From: Clostridiales bacterium
GTDB taxonomy: Bacteria > Bacillota > Clostridia > Christensenellales > QALW01
Assembly (NCBI GenBank): GCA_015069575.1
Contig: SVIH01000003.1
Location: forward strand, 62,001-126,000
Reading direction: 5' to 3'
DNA: 64,000 nt
Position 1 is the stretch's first letter. Every line of letters begins with the position of its first letter. The position numbers and the translations under genes were made by a program. This document shows, piece by piece, positions 13,840-62,152 of the stretch. A model generated the notes under the pieces. It saw nothing but the letters and a program-made list of their open reading frames with translations, searched no databases and was not told where the DNA came from.

Positions 13840-13856
13840 TTAATAAAACTGTATAT

Positions 13857-13950
13857 CTGCTTGGGGAGTCCTTTAAAAAAGGGCTGAGATTGCAAAAATG
13901 CTAAACCCATTAAACCTGTGTAGATAATCCTACCGTAGGGAAGCTTTAAG
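13857..13950 (+). ncRNA. TPP riboswitch (THI element)
   Basis: The conserved THI-box blocks are present in order: GGGGAGTCC, GGGCTGAGAT, AACCC, AACCTG, and the downstream block TACCGTAGGGAAGC. The aptamer binds thiamine pyrophosphate. It is followed 15 nt later by a hairpin with a T-run and then by thiT, so ligand binding is expected to promote transcription termination and shut off thiamine uptake. Confidence 0.95.
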
Positions 13951-13964
13951 CCTGAAATTTTTGG

Positions 13965-34704: not shown

Positions 34705-34965
34705 ATCCTATCCCACTATTAGTTATGGGACAGGATGTTCATTTTATCCTGCGGTGCCACCCAAATTGAATTACTTCCGCTCTTTTTTCACACTTTTTAA
34801 TGTGATTCGCACTGTAACGGTTGCGCTCCGTCAGAAACTACTAACCTTTCGGCTTTCGGCTGCCCTCATAAGCCCATTCATTTAATACGCCCTTATTGCC
34901 TTACACCAAACGGCAACTCTCTTTAAAGTTTGTAAAAAACTACTATCCTTAATCACAGGTTTATT
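34705..34965 (-). ncRNA. T-box leader, tryptophan specifier
   Basis: On the minus strand the T-box sequence GGGTGGCACCGC is at 34762-34751, followed by a terminator (ATCCTGTCCCA pairing with TGGGATAGGAT, then a T-run, 34736-34700). Stem I has the AGAGAG and GGTG elements, and the specifier loop reads GAA-TGG-G with TGG at 34876-34874, matching tRNA-Trp. Uncharged tRNA-Trp should pair with the specifier and T-box and stabilise the antiterminator, switching trpB on when tryptophan is scarce. Confidence 0.93.
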
Positions 34966-46525: not shown

Positions 46526-46609
46526 GCGGATATGGCGGAATTGGCAGACGCGCTAGACTTAGGATCTAGTGTTTTTGACGTGCAGGTTCAAGTCCTGTTA
46601 TCCGCACCA
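46526..46609 (+). tRNA. tRNA-Leu (anticodon TAG), CCA encoded
   Basis: An 84-nt class II tRNA: acceptor GCGGATA with TATCCGC, anticodon stem CTAGA/TCTAG around CTTAGGA with anticodon TAG, short variable arm, T-arm CAGGTTCAAGTCCTG, discriminator A and CCA. The gene sits directly after the gtrA terminator and is followed by a repeated copy of its own 3' end 199 nt downstream. Confidence 0.95.
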
Positions 46610-46808
46610 AATTAAAACAGACGGTTTTTACCGTCTTTTTTAATTTTATAACAGGACTTGAAACTTAAGAAGGTGCGTAGCGTAAAAAAACAGTACGGTG
46701 TACTGTTTTTTAGCGAAGCAGTGCGAAGACGGGTACCGAATGCGCAAGCATTGGGTCGGCAAGCACGAAAGATTTGCAAAGCAAAGCTTTGTCCTGTTAT
46801 CCGCACCA
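46610..46808 (+). repeat. tRNA-3'-end repeat unit A (terminator + 161-nt core)
   Basis: Between the tRNA-Leu CCA and a second copy of its 3' end. First a terminator (46620-46647), then a 161-nt core (46648-46808). The core starts with an inverted copy of the tRNA T-arm (ATAACAGGACTTGAA, complement of 46588-46602) and ends with a direct copy GTCCTGTTATCCGCACCA. The 33-nt direct repeat 46592-46624 / 46791-46823 is exact and includes 15 nt beyond CCA. Inside are a long hairpin (AAAAAACAGTAC/GTACTGTTTTTT) and blocks GTGCGA (46721), GGGTAC (46731) and GGTC (46754), which recur in unit B next to tmRNA. Confidence 0.7.
46620..46647 (+). terminator. Terminator directly after tRNA-Leu
   Basis: GACGGT-tttt-ACCGTC followed by TTTTTTAATTTT. 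Confidence 0.8.
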
Positions 46809-46819
46809 AATTAAAACAG

Positions 46820-46852
46820 ACGGCAAAAAGATATTATCTTTTTGCCGTTTTA
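46820..46852. terminator. Bidirectional terminator after repeat unit A
   Basis: ACGGCAAAAAGAT pairs with ATCTTTTTGCCGT, then TTTATT; also serves the convergent kinase gene. Confidence 0.8.
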
Positions 46853-47911
46853 TTCATTGATATTAATAATTAATTTGCATCTTTTTTTAATATCTGTATT
46901 ATCAAAATACATTTTTTCAAGCGGAATCCATTCATTAAAAAAGCGTTGTGCCATTTCAGGTGTATTTCTTTTTAATATTCTTTGTTTTTGTATTTTGTCA
47001 GATACATTTAAGAACACAGAAAAATCATAGTATTTTTCAAGTTCAACATGCATAGAATATGCGCCTTCAATTACCGTTAGATTTTTAGGCTTAACAGTTA
47101 TTGTTTCGCCTAAACACATAGTTGAACAATCAAATTTTTCATATGTTATATCTTGCCCATTATTAAGGGGAACAAGCACTTGTTGTAAAAAGCGTTCCCA
47201 ATCAATATTTCCACCAATTTCTTTATAACGCGCCTTTGTTCGTTGATGCATTTGTAAAAAGAAATCATCCATATGAAACACGGTGCAATCATATATGTTT
47301 TCTAACATTTGGCTTAATGTTGTTTTACCGCTTGCACTACCGCCTTCAAGCGCAATTTTAACATTGCCACATTTAAGCATTTTATCAAGTTCTAAAAATA
47401 TGGGCAGATATCTTGCATATTCTTTTGATATAACGCGATATGAAGGATTATAGGCTTTTCGGTAATTTTCAGAATGGTGAACGGGCGGATAACCTTTTTT
47501 TTGCCAAGTAATTTTTTCTTTTATAAAATCTTCCTTTGAAAACGGAATCAGGTTTTCTTCTGCAAGTTGCCCAGCTATCTTTAATTTATTTTCTAAATTT
47601 TCTGATCCATCAACTTCTTTTTTGGCTGAAAGCATAAACAGTTTGCATAAAGTTTTTATTGAAAGTCCCCTATCAATATATGTGAGCGGAACTCTGACAT
47701 AATTACCATCAAGCTTATCTATTTCATCATCTTCATAAAAAACGCTATGGGTATATTCTTCAAAAATACGTTCCGTTACTTTTTCACAAGATGCAACCAG
47801 ATGCTCGCACCCAAAGGCGCTTTGATAAAGAAATTTAAATATATCCTGCACTTGAAGTTCAGGATAGCGTTTGCAATAATCTATAAGTAATCTGCGGGTA
47901 TTTTCTTCCAT
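46850..47911 (-). CDS. Two-domain P-loop kinase, uridine/pantothenate-kinase-like
   Basis: A 353-residue fusion. Residues 1-175 are a helical domain I cannot name (with FLYQSAFGCEHLVASCE and VPLTYIDRGLS blocks). Residues 185-350 are a uridine-kinase/phosphoribulokinase-type kinase: Walker A GGSASGKTT at 190-198, VFHMDDFFLQM near 212, GGNIDWERFLQQV near 231 and VIEGAYSMH near 280. It follows the ECF S-component gene by 4 nt, so it may phosphorylate whatever that transporter brings in, trapping it in the cell. The substrate (a nucleoside-like or vitamin molecule) is unknown. Confidence 0.75.
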   Translation of the reverse strand: MEENTRRLLIDYCKRYPELQVQDIFKFLYQSAFGCEHLVASCEKVTERIFEEYTHSVFYEDDEIDKLDGNYVRVPLTYIDRGLSIKTLCKLFMLSAKKEVDGSENLENKLKIAGQLAEENLIPFSKEDFIKEKITWQKKGYPPVHHSENYRKAYNPSYRVISKEYARYLPIFLELDKMLKCGNVKIALEGGSASGKTTLSQMLENIYDCTVFHMDDFFLQMHQRTKARYKEIGGNIDWERFLQQVLVPLNNGQDITYEKFDCSTMCLGETITVKPKNLTVIEGAYSMHVELEKYYDFSVFLNVSDKIQKQRILKRNTPEMAQRFFNEWIPLEKMYFDNTDIKKRCKLIININE

Positions 47912-47915
47912 AATT

Positions 47916-48452
47916 TTATTCTTCTATCTGTAAAATATTTTTATTTTGAGCAAGCATAACAACAATGGGTATTAATAAAATCTGAACAATTATACCGGGA
48001 ATCGCATTAATAAACGCGCCTGAAATAAACGCCATAAAGGTAAAAGGTATATCTTTTATACCCATACAAATACACATTGCCACACCCCAAACAATTCTGC
48101 CAATAATCATAGCAGTAATTAAAGAGACATAAATATATGGCTTTTTTTGTGGAAGTATTTTATGCATTAAGCCTGCAACCAAACCATAAGCAGCAAGTTC
48201 AAACGCCATGGCAACAGATGCAGGGAAAATTGGTGGCATACCAAGTGTAAAAGAACGAAAAAGCGGTGCAATAAAACCAACAGTTAATCCCCACTGCCAA
48301 CCGCAAATAAATCCGCATATTAAAACAGGAATATGTAACGGGCAAAGCATTGAGCCGATTTCCGCTATCTGCCCTGTTAAAAAAGGCATTACATAGGCAA
48401 GTGCTAAAAAAAGCGCCGCAAGAATCATTTTAGTCAGGTTGTGTTTTTTCAT
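47916..48452 (-). CDS. ECF transporter S component, substrate unknown
   Basis: A 178-residue membrane protein with six hydrophobic helices. The LCPLHIPVLICGFICGWQWGL segment near residues 37-57 (key part: LCPLHIPVLICGFICG) and GMPPIFPASVAMAFELAAYG near 74-93 are typical of a common clostridial ECF substrate-binding subunit. It would use the shared ECF energising module. Position upstream of a P-loop kinase suggests uptake of a vitamin or nucleoside that is then phosphorylated. Unlike thiT it has no visible riboswitch. Confidence 0.82.
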   Translation of the reverse strand: MKKHNLTKMILAALFLALAYVMPFLTGQIAEIGSMLCPLHIPVLICGFICGWQWGLTVGFIAPLFRSFTLGMPPIFPASVAMAFELAAYGLVAGLMHKILPQKKPYIYVSLITAMIIGRIVWGVAMCICMGIKDIPFTFMAFISGAFINAIPGIIVQILLIPIVVMLAQNKNILQIEE

Positions 48453-48509
48453 TTTTTACTCCTTTAATACATATAATCGCCACTATAATAAAATCGTCAA
48501 AAACGGTCT

Positions 48510-49103
48510 TTATTCAAAAATCATTAAACCAAATTTGCTTGGATTATGGAAAGCAGAAACCTGCGGTGTAACGGGACACCATGTTAAATAGTGAGGCTGA
48601 ACACAATAATCACCGCATTTATAAAGGTTTGCCCGTATCATTTTACCGCTTTCAAGTTTAAACTCAGGGAAAAATCTTGTAATAAATTCTACAGGCACTT
48701 TATAGAAAACTTCCCAACCTTCTGAGGTATAATTGATTTTAATATCAAAAAGTTCTTTGGGATCAACAACAAGCCTTGTAATCCTTTGTACATTTGTTAC
48801 ACCAAACCCCAAAAACATACATCCGTTTGGATTGAATTCAATGTTAAAGTATCTGTCTTCTTCTGGATTTGGGCAGAAGAAAAACTCAAGACAACTATCA
48901 TGACAAGGCATACCTAATACATCAGTTTCTTCTTTTCTTATATCCTTTTCTTTTGCAAAAAGATGCACTAAAATTTCATCGGAAGTATATGCTATTTGCG
49001 CTGCTGCTTCAATACCTTCAACATTATATTTATACGGAGTATCAATTTTTACTACAGGTACGCTTTCCCAATTTTTAAATTTTGTAATTGTATATTGTTT
49101 CAT
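48510..49103 (-). CDS. Carbohydrate-binding family 9-like protein
   Basis: A 197-residue beta-sandwich protein resembling CBM9-like domains: a WESVPVVKI opening, AQIAYTSDEILVHLFAKEKD, DSCLEFFFCPNP near residue 80, YFNIEFNPNGCMFLGFG near 95-111 and WEVFYKVPVEF near 140. CBM9-like single-domain proteins bind sugars or act near glycan degradation; there is no signal peptide, so this one should be intracellular. Gene neighbours give no further clue. ATG 49103 follows AAGGAGA; an upstream frame extension to 49145 was rejected. Confidence 0.7.
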   Translation of the reverse strand: MKQYTITKFKNWESVPVVKIDTPYKYNVEGIEAAAQIAYTSDEILVHLFAKEKDIRKEETDVLGMPCHDSCLEFFFCPNPEEDRYFNIEFNPNGCMFLGFGVTNVQRITRLVVDPKELFDIKINYTSEGWEVFYKVPVEFITRFFPEFKLESGKMIRANLYKCGDYCVQPHYLTWCPVTPQVSAFHNPSKFGLMIFE

Positions 49104-49232
49104 AATTTCTCCTTGATTTTTTACTGCCATAATAATTACAGGCATAAAAATGGACTAATGTGGAATTGGAAACTTCAACAGTTTCACCTAAATCAAAAAT
49201 ATTTTATAAAATCTTTCATTTTATCTCTGCTT

Positions 49233-49991
49233 TTATTTATAGTTAAAACTTAAGAATGAAGAAAACATTTTTTCTCCTGTTTCTAAAGTGTTTGTGACAA
49301 TTCGCATTGTAGCCTTAACATCACTATCATAAAAGCTAACGCTTATATTGGTTTGTTCAGTGCCATTATATAATTTTTCTAATTCATTTTGAGGAATATC
49401 TTCCAATTTAGAATAATACTGATTGTTAAAACCGATAGATATGGCATCTACACCTGTAAATGCTTTCATTTTATTAATATCGCGAATCAATGCATTTTTT
49501 ACAAATTCGCTTGTTTTGTACTGAACATTAAAATTCAGATCAAAGCGTTCTAATTCTTCGTTATTATCATCGGTAAAATTATCGCTTTGTGTAAGCCACA
49601 ACGCATTGATTTCGGTAAAGCAATTGTTTTCATAAATATCCTGCATGGAACTACAATATCCTAAAATGCTTACTTCCTGATATTTATCACGCATATCATA
49701 GGTCATCCCCGGAGGTGTGCCGTATGTAAATTCGTTAGTTATTATGTACTGTTCAAGATATGCTTTAAAACTCTGATAATTATAAGCGGTTTCAAAAATC
49801 TGAAGATCTTCGGCGTAAATAACCGGCCTTGGTGTTGGGTTTGGTGTTGGCGTTGGCGTTACGACTTCAATCGTTGCAGTACTGTTTTCGGTAGAAATGG
49901 GTGTTTCTACCCCATTTTCTTCCTGCTCACAAGCAACGGCAAATGTTAATAAAATCACAACCAAACAAACAATTAATATCTTTTTAAACAT
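49233..49991 (-). CDS. Lipoprotein of unknown function with Thr-Pro linker
   Basis: A 252-residue lipoprotein: hydrophobic signal, lipobox FAVAC (lipidated Cys at residue 21), then an acidic stretch and a VTPTPTPNPTPRP linker near 44-56, leading to a globular domain of about 190 residues that I cannot assign. Like the proteins at 25774 and 59396 it is probably displayed on the outer face of the membrane with the linker crossing the wall. It lies upstream of a Cys-free region; no operon partner is evident. Confidence 0.7.
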   Translation of the reverse strand: MFKKILIVCLVVILLTFAVACEQEENGVETPISTENSTATIEVVTPTPTPNPTPRPVIYAEDLQIFETAYNYQSFKAYLEQYIITNEFTYGTPPGMTYDMRDKYQEVSILGYCSSMQDIYENNCFTEINALWLTQSDNFTDDNNEELERFDLNFNVQYKTSEFVKNALIRDINKMKAFTGVDAISIGFNNQYYSKLEDIPQNELEKLYNGTEQTNISVSFYDSDVKATMRIVTNTLETGEKMFSSFLSFNYK

Positions 49992-50012
49992 AGTTTTTTA
50001 CCTCTTTTTTAA

Positions 50013-50240
50013 TTATACAGTTAGAATATCATAAAATTGACAATTTTTCAAGGGGTTTACCATTATAAAACACAAAAAACAGGTTTTAATAAGCCTGTTT
50101 TTTATTTTTTTATTTTTTAATTGATAAGCACACAAAATGCCTGCAATTCCGCCACCGATTATTAAAACATCAGTATTTTTGTTACCGTTAAGGGTTTTGA
50201 AATTTATTTTTTGCGTCGTTTGTTCCCAAACAGATTTCAT
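50013..50240 (-). pseudogene. Truncated FAD-dependent oxidoreductase remnant
   Basis: The first 45 codons (MKSVWEQTTQKINFKTLNGN, then DVLIIGGGIAGILCAYQL) are the N-terminus of a DAO-type FAD oxidoreductase, with an intact dinucleotide-binding GxGxxG. After a lysine-rich junction the frame runs into unrelated sequence containing a terminator hairpin and stops at 75 codons. The family is normally 370-510 residues long. AGGAGG still precedes the ATG, so the 5' end is undamaged and the rest was deleted. Its oxidoreductase activity must be lost. Confidence 0.75.
50074..50105 (-). terminator. Terminator inside the oxidoreductase remnant
   Basis: AAAAAACAGG pairs with CCTGTTTTTT around a short AT loop; the T-run ends the remnant's transcript. 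Confidence 0.65.
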
Positions 50241-50287
50241 AAAAAAGCCTCCTAAAATTGTTTAAATTATTGCTTGTTCCTATTTTT

Positions 50288-50316
50288 ATATTCAACGCAA
50301 AAAAATGCATAAAAAT
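50288..50316 (+). promoter_or_regulatory. Sigma-E-like promoter of the manganese catalase gene
   Basis: ATATT (50288-50292), 15 nt, CATAAAAAT (50308-50316) resembles the mother-cell sigma-E layout (ATATT then CATA-type -10). It lies 50 nt before the gene start. Confidence 0.45.
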
Positions 50317-50365
50317 TTTTAAATTGAAAAAAAATATTTATGAAAAAATTTCAGGAGGTAAAGAT

Positions 50366-51031
50366 ATGTTTAAACACGAAAAAGCGCTTTTTCATCCCGT
50401 AGCGGTTGAAAAGCCCAATCCTCAATATGCCGTACTTTTACAGGAACAGCTTGGTGGTGGTAACGGTGAACTTAAAGCGGCTATGCAGTATATGTCACAA
50501 AGTTTCAGAATCAGAGACCCTGAAATCAAAGATTTATTCCTTGATATTGCCGCTGAAGAATTAGGGCATATGGAAATGGTTGCCCAAACCATCAATCTTT
50601 TAAACGGGCACGATGTTGATGCTGAAAAAGTTCCGTTTGGTGAAATTCAATCACACGTACTTTTAGGGCTGAACCCCGGTTTAATTAATGCTTCAGGCTA
50701 TTCCTGGACAGGTGATTACGTAACGGTTACAGGTGATCTTTGTGCAGATTTATTAAGTAATATTGCTTCTGAACAGCGCGCAAAGGTTGTATACGAATAT
50801 TTATACCGCCAGATTGACGATAAAAAGGTGCGGGAAACCATTGACTTTTTATTAAACCGCGAAGAAGCGCATAATCAGATGTTCCGTGATGCGTTTAACA
50901 AGGTGCAGAATTCAGGTTCTAACAGAGATTTTGGAACAACTAAGGCTGCAAAAATGTATTTTTCAATGTCTGACCCCGGACCCAACACTTTTGCAAATAA
51001 CGACACACAGCCTGTTTCGTTTAATAAGTAA
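50366..51031 (+). CDS. Manganese catalase family protein, CotJC-like
   Basis: A 221-residue ferritin-like protein. The dimanganese ligands are visible: GGGNGELKAAMQY near residue 28-40 (Glu), AAEELGHMEM near 60-69 (Glu and His), SEQRAKVVYEY near 134 (Glu) and NREEAHNQMF near 160 (Glu, His). It should decompose hydrogen peroxide. In Bacillus the shorter relative CotJC is a spore coat protein, and the sigma-E-like promoter agrees with a spore role, by inference. The frame opens at 50258, but ATG 50366 follows a perfect AGGAGG. A terminator follows. Confidence 0.88.
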   Translation: MFKHEKALFHPVAVEKPNPQYAVLLQEQLGGGNGELKAAMQYMSQSFRIRDPEIKDLFLDIAAEELGHMEMVAQTINLLNGHDVDAEKVPFGEIQSHVLLGLNPGLINASGYSWTGDYVTVTGDLCADLLSNIASEQRAKVVYEYLYRQIDDKKVRETIDFLLNREEAHNQMFRDAFNKVQNSGSNRDFGTTKAAKMYFSMSDPGPNTFANNDTQPVSFNK

Positions 51032-51032
51032 C

Positions 51033-51060
51033 AAAAAAGGCATCACAAGATGCCTTTTTT
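51033..51060 (+). terminator. Terminator after manganese catalase gene
   Basis: AAAAAAGGCATC-acaa-GATGCCTTTTTT. Confidence 0.88.
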
Positions 51061-51065
51061 AGTTT

Positions 51066-51277
51066 TGGTGGAGGCGAGGGGTACGCGTGCAGGCACGCTA
51101 TCTGCTCGTTGACCGTTCCGCTTGCTACCGCAATGCTCACAGTACCCAACTCGCACAACAATCCTAAAAACGATTATCAATCGTTTTCTTGACGGATTGT
51201 TCCCTCTCAGGGTTCGACTCCCCTTGCTATACTACTGAATAGTAAAACACACCGCATTTTTGCGGTGTGTTTTCTAT
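51066..51277 (-). repeat. tmRNA-3'-end repeat unit B (terminator + 162-nt core)
   Basis: Downstream of tmRNA on the minus strand: a terminator (51273-51244), then a 162-nt core from 51227 to 51066. The core starts with an inverted copy of the tmRNA T-arm region (51227-51208; one substitution and one deletion) and ends with a direct copy of the CCA end (CCCCTCGCCTCCACCA; 17 nt identical with flank, 51065-51081 against 51277-51293). Inside are a nested hairpin (AACAATCC/GGATTGTT enclosing AAAACGAT/ATCGTTTT) and the blocks GTGCGA, GGGTAC and GGTC at offsets 72, 81 and 114, close to offsets 74, 84 and 107 in unit A. Confidence 0.7.
51244..51273 (-). terminator. Terminator directly after tmRNA
   Basis: AAAACACACCGCA pairs with TGCGGTGTGTTTT, the T-run following the 3' arm on the minus strand. 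Confidence 0.85.
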
Positions 51278-51632
51278 TGGTGGAGGCGAGGGGAGTCGAA
51301 CCCCTGTCCAAAGAAGCGGAAATATGGTTTTCTACGAGTGTAGCCGATGATTAAAGATTCCCCTTTAAGCTTGCACAACGGCACGCTTGCTTATTGGGTA
51401 GCTTCATTTTTCATCGCAATCGCAAAGCTTAGATTGCTGACGTGCACTGCGTGTTTTGGCGCTGAGATCTAAGCCCGCAGTAAGCTTAGGTCAGCGGAAA
51501 CTGCATTAAGCAGCTACTAAATTAGTTCTGTTATTAGCGTTTATATTTACGCTTGGGTTTTTTGCGTGCGCCCCAAAATCACGACTCGCTTACCGTACCA
51601 CCGAACAACCCTGTCGAAACCTTTACGCCCCC
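51278..51632 (-). ncRNA. ssrA: Transfer-messenger RNA (tmRNA)
   Basis: A 355-nt RNA. The 5' end GGGGGCGTAAAGGTTTCGAC and 3' end CGCCTCCACCA pair as a tRNA-like acceptor (seven pairs, one G-U); T-arm GGGGTTCGACTCCCC and encoded CCA are present. The tag reading frame ends GCT AAT AAC AGA ACT AAT TTA GTA GCT GCT TAA, i.e. a tag finishing ANNRTNLVAA; the resume codon was not proven. It lies close to smpB, whose product is its protein partner in rescuing stalled ribosomes. Confidence 0.95.
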
Positions 51633-60841: not shown

Positions 60842-62152
60842 ATGAAAAAGATCAGTTTTATTGGTGCAGGCAGTGTGGGGTTCACAACTGCTGTTATAAA
60901 AGATATTACTACATTTCCTGCTTTGGACTCTGCCAAAATCTGTTTAATGGATATTGATGAGTACAGGCTTAATAAAATCACACAATGTATACACCGCATT
61001 AAAAAGGAAATGAATTCGAATATTACAATTATTTCTACCACATCCCGAGAAGAAGCACTTACTGACGCAGATGCTGTAATTATAACTGTTTTTAACGGAG
61101 ATGTGGATATCTGGCGCCACGAAATTGAAATTCCAATGAAATATGGCGTTGATATCAACATTGGCGATACCCGAAGTGTTTCAGGTATTTTTAGAACATT
61201 GCGAAGCATTCCTCTTATGCTGGATATTTGTCATGACATTGAAAAGTACTGCCCAAACGCAGTGGTATTAAATTACACTAACCCTATGGCAATGCTTTGT
61301 AAAGCCATGCAAACATACACCACGGTTGATGTAACCGGTCTTTGTCACAGTGTACAGGGTACTGCTAAAATGTTGGCAGATTGGGCTGAGGTTGATGCTG
61401 AAACACTACAATATACCTGCGTAGGCATTAACCATCTGGCGTTTTTTACTTTGCTTAAATCCGGTGAAACTGACCTTTATCCATTGTTGCAGAAAAAAAT
61501 TGAAACTGATGAATTCTACAATAAAGAAAAGGTTCGCAACGAGATTTTTAAAACCTTTGGATACTATGTTACCGAGTCTAGCGGACATAATTCCGAATAC
61601 ACTCCATGGTTCCGCAAACGCCCTGATCTTATCCGCAAATACTGTTCTCCTGAAGGCGCTAACTGGAATCCGGGAGAACACGCATATTCTTTAAAATTGC
61701 GTCAGGATCCGCATAGGTTTGATAATCTTGTTAAAGAGTTTATGGAAAACCCATTAAGCAAAGAACGCGGAAATGAGTATGCCGCAAATATTATAAATGC
61801 ACGAATTGGCGATGGCACACCGTTTGATTTTAATGCGAATGTATTAAATAAAGGCAGCGTGGAAAATTTACCTTTTGATGCTTGCGTAGAAATCCCCGTT
61901 ACTGCAACAAAAGACGGTTATATCCGTCGTTTTAATGGAAAGTTACCGGATAACATTGCGCCGTTAGTTGCTTATACCGCCACAATTGAAAATATGACAG
62001 TTGACGCATGGGAAAAGAAATCCAAAGCGTTAGTATATCAAGCAGTATCGTTAGATCCACTTTGTTCAGCAGTTTTAAGCCTTGAAGAAATTCGGTTGAT
62101 GTGCGATGAATTGTTTAACATAAATAAAGAATATTTAGGCGATTTTAAATAA
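60842..62152 (+). CDS. melA: GH4 family alpha-galactosidase (MelA-like)
   Basis: A 436-residue NAD-dependent glycosidase: Rossmann FIGAGSVGFTTAVIKDI near residue 5-21, VIITVFNGDVDIWRHE near 75-90, NYTNPMAM near 145, VTGLCHSVQGTAKM near 161-174 (metal Cys-His site typical of MelA) and GHNSEYTPWFRKR near 243-255. GH4 enzymes cleave by oxidation-elimination using NAD+ and Mn2+. The substrate is most likely an alpha-galactoside, though close relatives act on alpha-glucosides. ATG 60842 was chosen over a frame opening at 60803 because AGAGAGG precedes it. Confidence 0.85.
   Translation: MKKISFIGAGSVGFTTAVIKDITTFPALDSAKICLMDIDEYRLNKITQCIHRIKKEMNSNITIISTTSREEALTDADAVIITVFNGDVDIWRHEIEIPMKYGVDINIGDTRSVSGIFRTLRSIPLMLDICHDIEKYCPNAVVLNYTNPMAMLCKAMQTYTTVDVTGLCHSVQGTAKMLADWAEVDAETLQYTCVGINHLAFFTLLKSGETDLYPLLQKKIETDEFYNKEKVRNEIFKTFGYYVTESSGHNSEYTPWFRKRPDLIRKYCSPEGANWNPGEHAYSLKLRQDPHRFDNLVKEFMENPLSKERGNEYAANIINARIGDGTPFDFNANVLNKGSVENLPFDACVEIPVTATKDGYIRRFNGKLPDNIAPLVAYTATIENMTVDAWEKKSKALVYQAVSLDPLCSAVLSLEEIRLMCDELFNINKEYLGDFK

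Follow-up and report, generated by a model that had tools for sequence, protein, structure and literature searches.

We analysed a 64,000-nucleotide stretch of contig SVIH01000003.1 from a Clostridiales bacterium (positions 62,001 to 126,000, forward strand), hereafter called the window. Two small repeat units lie in it, one behind a transfer RNA (tRNA) gene and one behind the gene of transfer-messenger RNA (tmRNA). Unit A occupies positions 46648-46808 (+ strand, 161 nt) and unit B positions 51066-51227 (- strand, 162 nt). Both show the same layout, all on one strand: the tRNA or tmRNA ending in CCA, a terminator, an inverted copy of the T-arm, a core, a direct copy running from the T-loop to CCA, and a terminator. 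The features are listed below in the numbering of the window, with the evidence in brackets.

46526..46609, + strand: host gene of unit A, tRNA-Leu (TAG), CCA encoded (ARAGORN; Rfam RF00005)
46610..46647, + strand: first terminator-like hairpin, between the tRNA and unit A (sequence; its first 15 nt are identical to the stretch after unit A)
46648..46664, + strand: inverted arm of unit A, the 5' strand of helix P0 (reverse complement of the tRNA T-loop, 3' T-stem strand and three acceptor bases)
46664..46673, + strand: helix P1 of unit A (consensus structure, pair counts)
46674..46720, + strand: helix P2 of unit A, a long hairpin with a conserved GUUAAG-type / UA internal loop (consensus structure, pair counts)
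46722..46765, + strand: helix P3 of unit A, GUGCGA..GGGUAC..GGUC..GCA with a GA-rich internal loop (consensus structure, motif comparison)
46770..46788, + strand: helix P4 of unit A, a small hairpin (consensus structure)
46791..46808, + strand: direct arm of unit A, a tRNA copy from the T-loop end to CCA, giving the 3' strand of P0 and a free 3' end (sequence)
46809..46852, + strand: second terminator-like hairpin, after unit A, starting with a duplicate of the post-tRNA sequence (terminator comparison)
51278..51632, - strand: host gene of unit B, tmRNA with the tag ANNRTNLVAA (ARAGORN; Rfam RF00023)
51230..51277, - strand: first terminator-like hairpin, between the tmRNA and unit B (sequence, terminator comparison)
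51210..51227, - strand: inverted arm of unit B, the reverse complement of the tmRNA T-arm (sequence)
51202..51211, - strand: helix P1 of unit B (consensus structure)
51157..51201, - strand: helix P2 of unit B (consensus structure)
51103..51155, - strand: helix P3 of unit B (consensus structure)
51085..51098, - strand: helix P4 of unit B (consensus structure)
51066..51081, - strand: direct arm of unit B, the tmRNA 3' end copied through CCA (sequence)
51028..51065, - strand: second terminator-like hairpin, after unit B (terminator comparison)

A first-pass annotation of this DNA had described the two units as members of one undescribed tRNA/tmRNA-targeting family. Its description holds at the locus. 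The two lengths are right, a large hairpin fills the first half of both units, the inverted arms (ATAACAGGACTTGAAAC in unit A, GCAAGGGGAGTCGAACCC in unit B) reach about three bases into the acceptor, and the direct arms end in CCA. The shared words also stand where they had been placed: GTGCGA, GGGTAC and GGTC lie at 0-based offsets 73/71, 83/80 and 106/113 of units A/B. Judged from the two sequences, the similarity of the interiors is by itself weak and not significant, as a local score of 20 was reached by 40 of 500 dinucleotide shuffles. The kinship is proven through the wider family, since A and B each match further copies at low E values.

Performing BLAST searches within the genome of the window (G000, 1.59 Mb), we found further copies after tRNA-Leu(AAG), tRNA-Leu(CAA) and tRNA-Glu(CTC). 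Unit A retrieved the Leu-AAG copy (E=3e-9), and unit B retrieved the Leu-CAA (2e-24) and Glu-CTC (8e-17) copies. A covariance model, R1, built from five copies (A, B and these three), added copies after tRNA-Ser(CGA) and tRNA-Ser(GGA). In G001, the only other near-complete congener, R1 found four copies, after Leu(CAA), Leu(AAG), Ser(GGA) and Pro(TGG). The five founding copies match R1 by construction because the model was built from them, but the other six do not. The annotation had staked its family on the presence of more copies in the complete genome. Five more are there, all after tRNA genes, and the family stands with seven copies in the genome and relatives in the order. A census of the 42 tRNA/tmRNA genes of G000 showed that seven, the tmRNA gene included, are occupied, and that neither arm is present at the rest.

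Across the order, 90 of 396 sampled genomes matched (E<=1e-3). When the 28 best loci, one per genome, were read, an intact tRNA lay in the fetched stretch at 19; at about six more the tRNA was cut by the contig end, truncated or further upstream, and three showed no tRNA. A phylum-wide sample gave matches in 6 of 398 genomes at E<=1e-5, and most of the loci re-read there sit behind tRNA genes. The hosts include Leu, Ser, Pro, Val, Ala, Lys, Asn, Arg, Thr, Gly, Glu, Gln and Met tRNAs together with tmRNA, and the distance from the tRNA end to the unit is 39-62 nt in most. The covariance models of Rfam 15 gave weak chance matches only and no family matched the units. In the open-access literature, we found no paper describing a tRNA-end hairpin family. 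In summary, A and B almost certainly belong to one real, structured, tRNA-linked family, which is widespread in gut-type Clostridia and, going by Rfam 15 and the open-access literature, apparently undescribed.

The consensus fold of the family begins with P0, which pairs arm with arm, followed by P1 (CC..GG) and then P2, P3 and P4. P2 has a variable lower stem, a conserved GUUAAG / UA internal loop and an AAAAC..GUUUU hairpin. P3 carries a GA-rich internal loop, and its apex is either a UAUG-type loop or, as in A and B, the GGGUAC..GGUC domain. The core is about 110 nt long. In the 58 distinct rows of the 59-copy alignment A3, 91.1% of the cells are paired, and 41 of the 46 pairs show double-sided changes. 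Double-changed cells number 550, compared with 152 in the shuffled control and 38-132 in the slid controls, so that the compensatory changes exceed both controls, as expected of a structured RNA. The wider set of 95 matches gave the same pairing picture. We count only P1-P4 as evidence of selected structure, since P0 covaries through copying. Outside P0, G-U occurs in 72 cells and A-C in 24 (one fixed pair left out), and this excess indicates that the tRNA-sense strand is the folding strand.

The annotation had further noted an open frame through GTGCGA and suggested a basic peptide like Tpr of the E. coli tyrT repeats. The frame is indeed open in A and B, which would suit a small peptide gene behind the tRNA. 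However, the majority of the other aligned copies read have an interrupted frame, the copy lengths vary out of frame, and the variation follows base pairs. The frame is thus not conserved, the broken copies indicate a non-coding unit, and a Tpr-like peptide is contradicted to a degree that practically dismisses it. On this pattern of variation, the core is structured and non-coding.

We checked the origin of the two arms by comparing 65 units with their hosts. Agreement with the unit's own host is 12.6 of 15 positions for the inverted arm and 14.2 of 16 for the direct arm, while 2000 relabellings of the hosts gave at most 10.98 and 9.97, respectively. Direct arms are often exact tRNA copies through CCA. 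Position 57 of the tRNA offers the sharpest test, since this base is absent from the direct arm. Paired with the inverted-arm base, it gave G-C 30, A-T 24, G-T 7 and A-C 1 (P=5.6e-10, a guide only, as related units are not independent). The arms therefore track the host tRNA and the core shows strong compensatory variation, which are the arm rule and the covarying stems that the annotation had proposed to look for.

The cores showed a different pattern. In G001, the Leu(CAA) and Leu(AAG) units are 91% alike, compared with 80% and 67% to the same-tRNA units of G000. Within G000, the units at Ser(CGA) and Ser(GGA) agree at 82%, but the Ser(GGA) unit agrees with its G001 counterpart at only 54%. 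Spread within the genome with remade arms would explain this, and so would gene conversion of cores; simple descent at each tRNA cannot.

The flanks behind tRNA genes are unrelated between G000 and G001, and a comparison of occupied with empty sites failed there. We therefore used the genus of G335 (20 genomes). Behind its tRNA-Leu(TAA) gene, G335, G290 and G808 carry a unit and G379 an inverted-arm remnant, while the other readable genomes have no unit. The first terminator is common to G290, G379 and the empty G271, and the unit or remnant starts directly after it, which places the insertion right behind the terminator. In 16 of 35 units, the stretches after the tRNA CCA and after the unit CCA are 80-100% identical; for unrelated tRNAs the 95th percentile of identity is 70%. 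Such units thus sit between direct repeats of the tRNA 3' end plus terminator, and these repeats may stem either from a long duplication of the target or from a tandem array. Arrays are common, as the second terminator is followed by another inverted arm in 16 of 35 units.

We also looked for autonomous versions with a gene inside the unit, and the genes found near units belong to separate islands. Two islands lie inside unit arrays (L058:3543-8100 and L059:5657-9173). The first, in G308, lies between two units and encodes a protein of 1023 aa together with a possible Rep-like fragment; the second, in G126, encodes a probable serine recombinase (504 aa, judged by eye) between tRNA-Leu and the unit. 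Other repeats occur at these sites. Locus L248, at tRNA-Glu(CTC) of G001, contains another type of tandem repeat (GGGGTCCCCGAAAAGCA..TGCTTTT.GGGG), which has a partial tRNA-Glu arm of its own; in L019 and L021, a related piece separates tRNA-Leu from the unit. In L083, L246 and L032, a repeat (TTACTTCTTCACTATTCACT..) and its inverted copy behind several tRNA terminators form a second family. Just behind a unit that follows tRNA-Ser(GGA) lies a Gut-1 RNA (RF01706, 85 bits; L069:1515-1591, - strand), and a Gut-1-like sequence is also found behind tRNA-Ser(CGA) in G001 (L247). In L200 (- strand), helix P3 of a unit after tRNA-Lys(TTT) is split by an insertion of about 330 nt. The insertion ends in inverted tRNA 3' ends (GCCCGACGGGAGTCGAACTC..GTTCGACTCTCGTCGGGC) and is apparently flanked by TA, which makes it a tRNA-armed element at a non-tRNA site. 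Elsewhere in the window, Rfam matched a T-box leader (34723-34965, - strand) and a TPP riboswitch (13852-13958, + strand).

Relatives away from tRNA genes were sought by running the exact P2 pattern over 85,000 named genomes. Among the matches listed were units linked to tRNA genes, from uncultured Clostridia, Oscillospiraceae and Acetanaerobacterium, and also hairpins with no tRNA gene nearby, from Oscillospiraceae, Flavobacteriia and Moraxellaceae. In Acetanaerobacterium elongatum, the unit follows tRNA-Thr (L153). With a second model, R2, many clostridial loci of this set reached E values of 1e-12 to 1e-6, and most of the others 1e-5 to 1e-2; these values are inflated because the pattern had preselected the loci, and the distant loci are only candidate homologues. 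In Flavobacteriia, a P2-like hairpin stands directly 3' of an apparent TPP-riboswitch aptamer in four loci (L159, L169, L172 and L198). Others stand at the 3' ends of apparent mreB and ruvB genes (L074 of G303; L144 and L184 of Acinetobacter), and in the apparent mreB case the last bases of the gene itself form the lower stem.

Any explanation has to account for a left end inverted from the target, a right end copied directly from it (from about T-loop position 58), a duplication reaching to the terminator end, a conserved fold, and a unit that contains no gene. We favor, at a probability of roughly 0.55, that A and B are small non-autonomous mobile elements with a core of about 110 nt that insert just behind tRNA/tmRNA genes. 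Among the guesses of the annotation on their nature, a mobile hairpin element fits best, and a non-coding RNA fits as to structure. The element would be folded as single-stranded RNA or DNA and would meet its target via the near-universal T-loop sequence GGTTCRANYCC; because this sequence is near-universal, one element would fit all tRNAs. An enzyme would join it to the T-loop of the tRNA gene; as the units are without genes, this enzyme would have to be supplied in trans. Synthesis on the target would then rewrite both ends and make the long duplication, leaving the tRNA intact, and arrays would grow and shrink by recombination between direct arms.

Several points weigh against this mobility. 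The alignment behind the pair counts had itself been fitted to the model, and P0, whose arms covary as copies of one tRNA, contributes six of the pairs in the fold. Gene conversion could also give the likeness of cores within a genome, and the tree of the short cores is mostly unresolved. No transposition was observed, and the genomes are drafts, one per species. No mobilizing enzyme was found among the Y1, reverse transcriptase and IS110 families; tyrosine and serine recombinases were not searched for. The Y1 transposase (PF01797) is absent from G000 and G001, the reverse transcriptase (RVT_1, PF00078) from 9 of 13 carrier genomes (an absence that is not absolute in drafts), and the IS110 transposase (DEDD, PF01548) from all 13. 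Y1/RAYT, reverse transcriptase and IS110 were accordingly set aside as mobilizers, being wholly or mostly absent from the tested carriers. A phage vehicle was likewise rejected, as the core hairpin pattern occurs in just 2 of 2.9 million viral contigs, and a single plasmid search with an Acinetobacter copy gave no match.

The unit may instead be a host RNA made with the tRNA, which would arise by read-through past the first terminator, fold through P0 and end in CCA. It could serve as a switch, its inverted arm pairing with the host T-arm or with its own direct arm and so tuning tRNA folding, processing or a response; the rtT RNA from the tyrT locus of E. coli had been proposed to act in this manner. 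The match of the arms would then follow from their need to pair. The fold on the tRNA-sense strand suits this explanation, as do the direct arms that are often exact through CCA, and position 57, which lies outside P0 and still matches the tRNA, with a G-U pair kept in 7 of 8 departures. However, the units are patchy between close species and at different tRNAs, broken and partial units exist, a terminator precedes each unit, and an array holds several copies. We consider a host RNA unlikely on balance. Slightly less likely is a replication accident with no dedicated element, in which the T-loop palindrome and the terminator hairpin provoke fold-back template switching that makes the inverted arm, and a chance core is then carried along by tandem duplication and by gene conversion via the shared T-arm. 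The arms are indeed host-derived, the T-loop sequence TTCGAA is palindromic, direct arms allow tandem growth, and cores are homogenized within genomes. But the same fold with hundreds of compensatory changes in many families requires selection on structure, the arrangement is constant, and related cores also occur away from tRNA genes.

In a further explanation, the RNA of the unit has a tRNA-like 3' end and would be copied by a resident reverse transcriptase where the tRNA gene is nicked. Such target-primed copying would agree with the fold on the sense strand and with a 3' arm that can pair with the target strand, and G000 and G001 have one RVT_1 protein each; still, the carriers that lack RVT_1 include G335 (7 matches) and G135 (8 matches), which makes this retroelement improbable.

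Returning to the mobile element, we propose more tentatively that it represents a new kind of homing element. As a folded RNA or single-stranded DNA, about 110 nt in length, it would recognize tRNA and tmRNA genes by their universal T-loop and have both ends rewritten from each target, so that it would fit every tRNA and leave it unharmed. To our knowledge, an insertion mode with ends rebuilt from each target has no precedent. If true, it would solve the problem of an essential gene as target, since the tRNA is always restored, and it would explain why tRNA 3' ends are hot spots of tandem repeats and islands in these bacteria. The mobilizing enzyme, if found, could give a new way of writing short inserts at tRNA genes. 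If the unit is a host RNA instead, it would represent a class of tRNA-linked RNAs whose hosts are many different tRNAs.

Going by its sequence, the unit behaves like a mobile element, yet it could not be placed in any of the known classes that we tried. IS110/IS1111 elements with a bridge RNA depend on a DEDD transposase, and none of the 13 carriers has one; group II introns and other retroelements depend on a reverse transcriptase, which 9 of the 13 draft carriers lack. The E. coli tyrT gene (tRNA-Tyr) is followed by tandem repeats of about 178 bp, each with the tRNA 3' end through CCA, and an RNA, rtT RNA, reportedly comes from them. The present units likewise repeat the 3' end of the tRNA, CCA included, downstream of the gene. 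However, tyrT is a single locus without an inverted T-arm copy, while the units use many tRNAs and tmRNA and have a different conserved fold; since they match no Rfam family, they show no sequence homology to rtT RNA either. In miniature inverted-repeat transposable elements (MITEs), the inverted repeats belong to the element and the target duplications are short. The units resemble MITEs in being small and non-coding with inverted ends and duplicated flanks, but their ends track the host tRNA, the inverted end being remade per target, and the duplication comprises the tRNA 3' end and terminator. Repetitive extragenic palindromic (REP) sequences and REPINs with their RAYT (Y1) are likewise small, folded, non-autonomous intergenic elements that probably depend on an enzyme in trans. 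REPs have ends of their own, along with a GTAG/GTGG guide (PMC6006769), whereas the ends of the units come from the target, and G000 and G001 have no Y1 transposase. Islands and prophages at tRNA genes share the T-arm/3' end as target and the restored tRNA 3' end; in comparison, the units have a core of about 110 nt without integrase, an inverted arm, many tRNA hosts and a pattern nearly absent from viral contigs. Unlike integron cassettes, the units have no cassette genes and their sites are tRNA-derived. Both form arrays of variable cores separated by fold-back sites, and if T-arm, terminator and inverted T-arm fold into one hairpin, it would look similar to an attC site.

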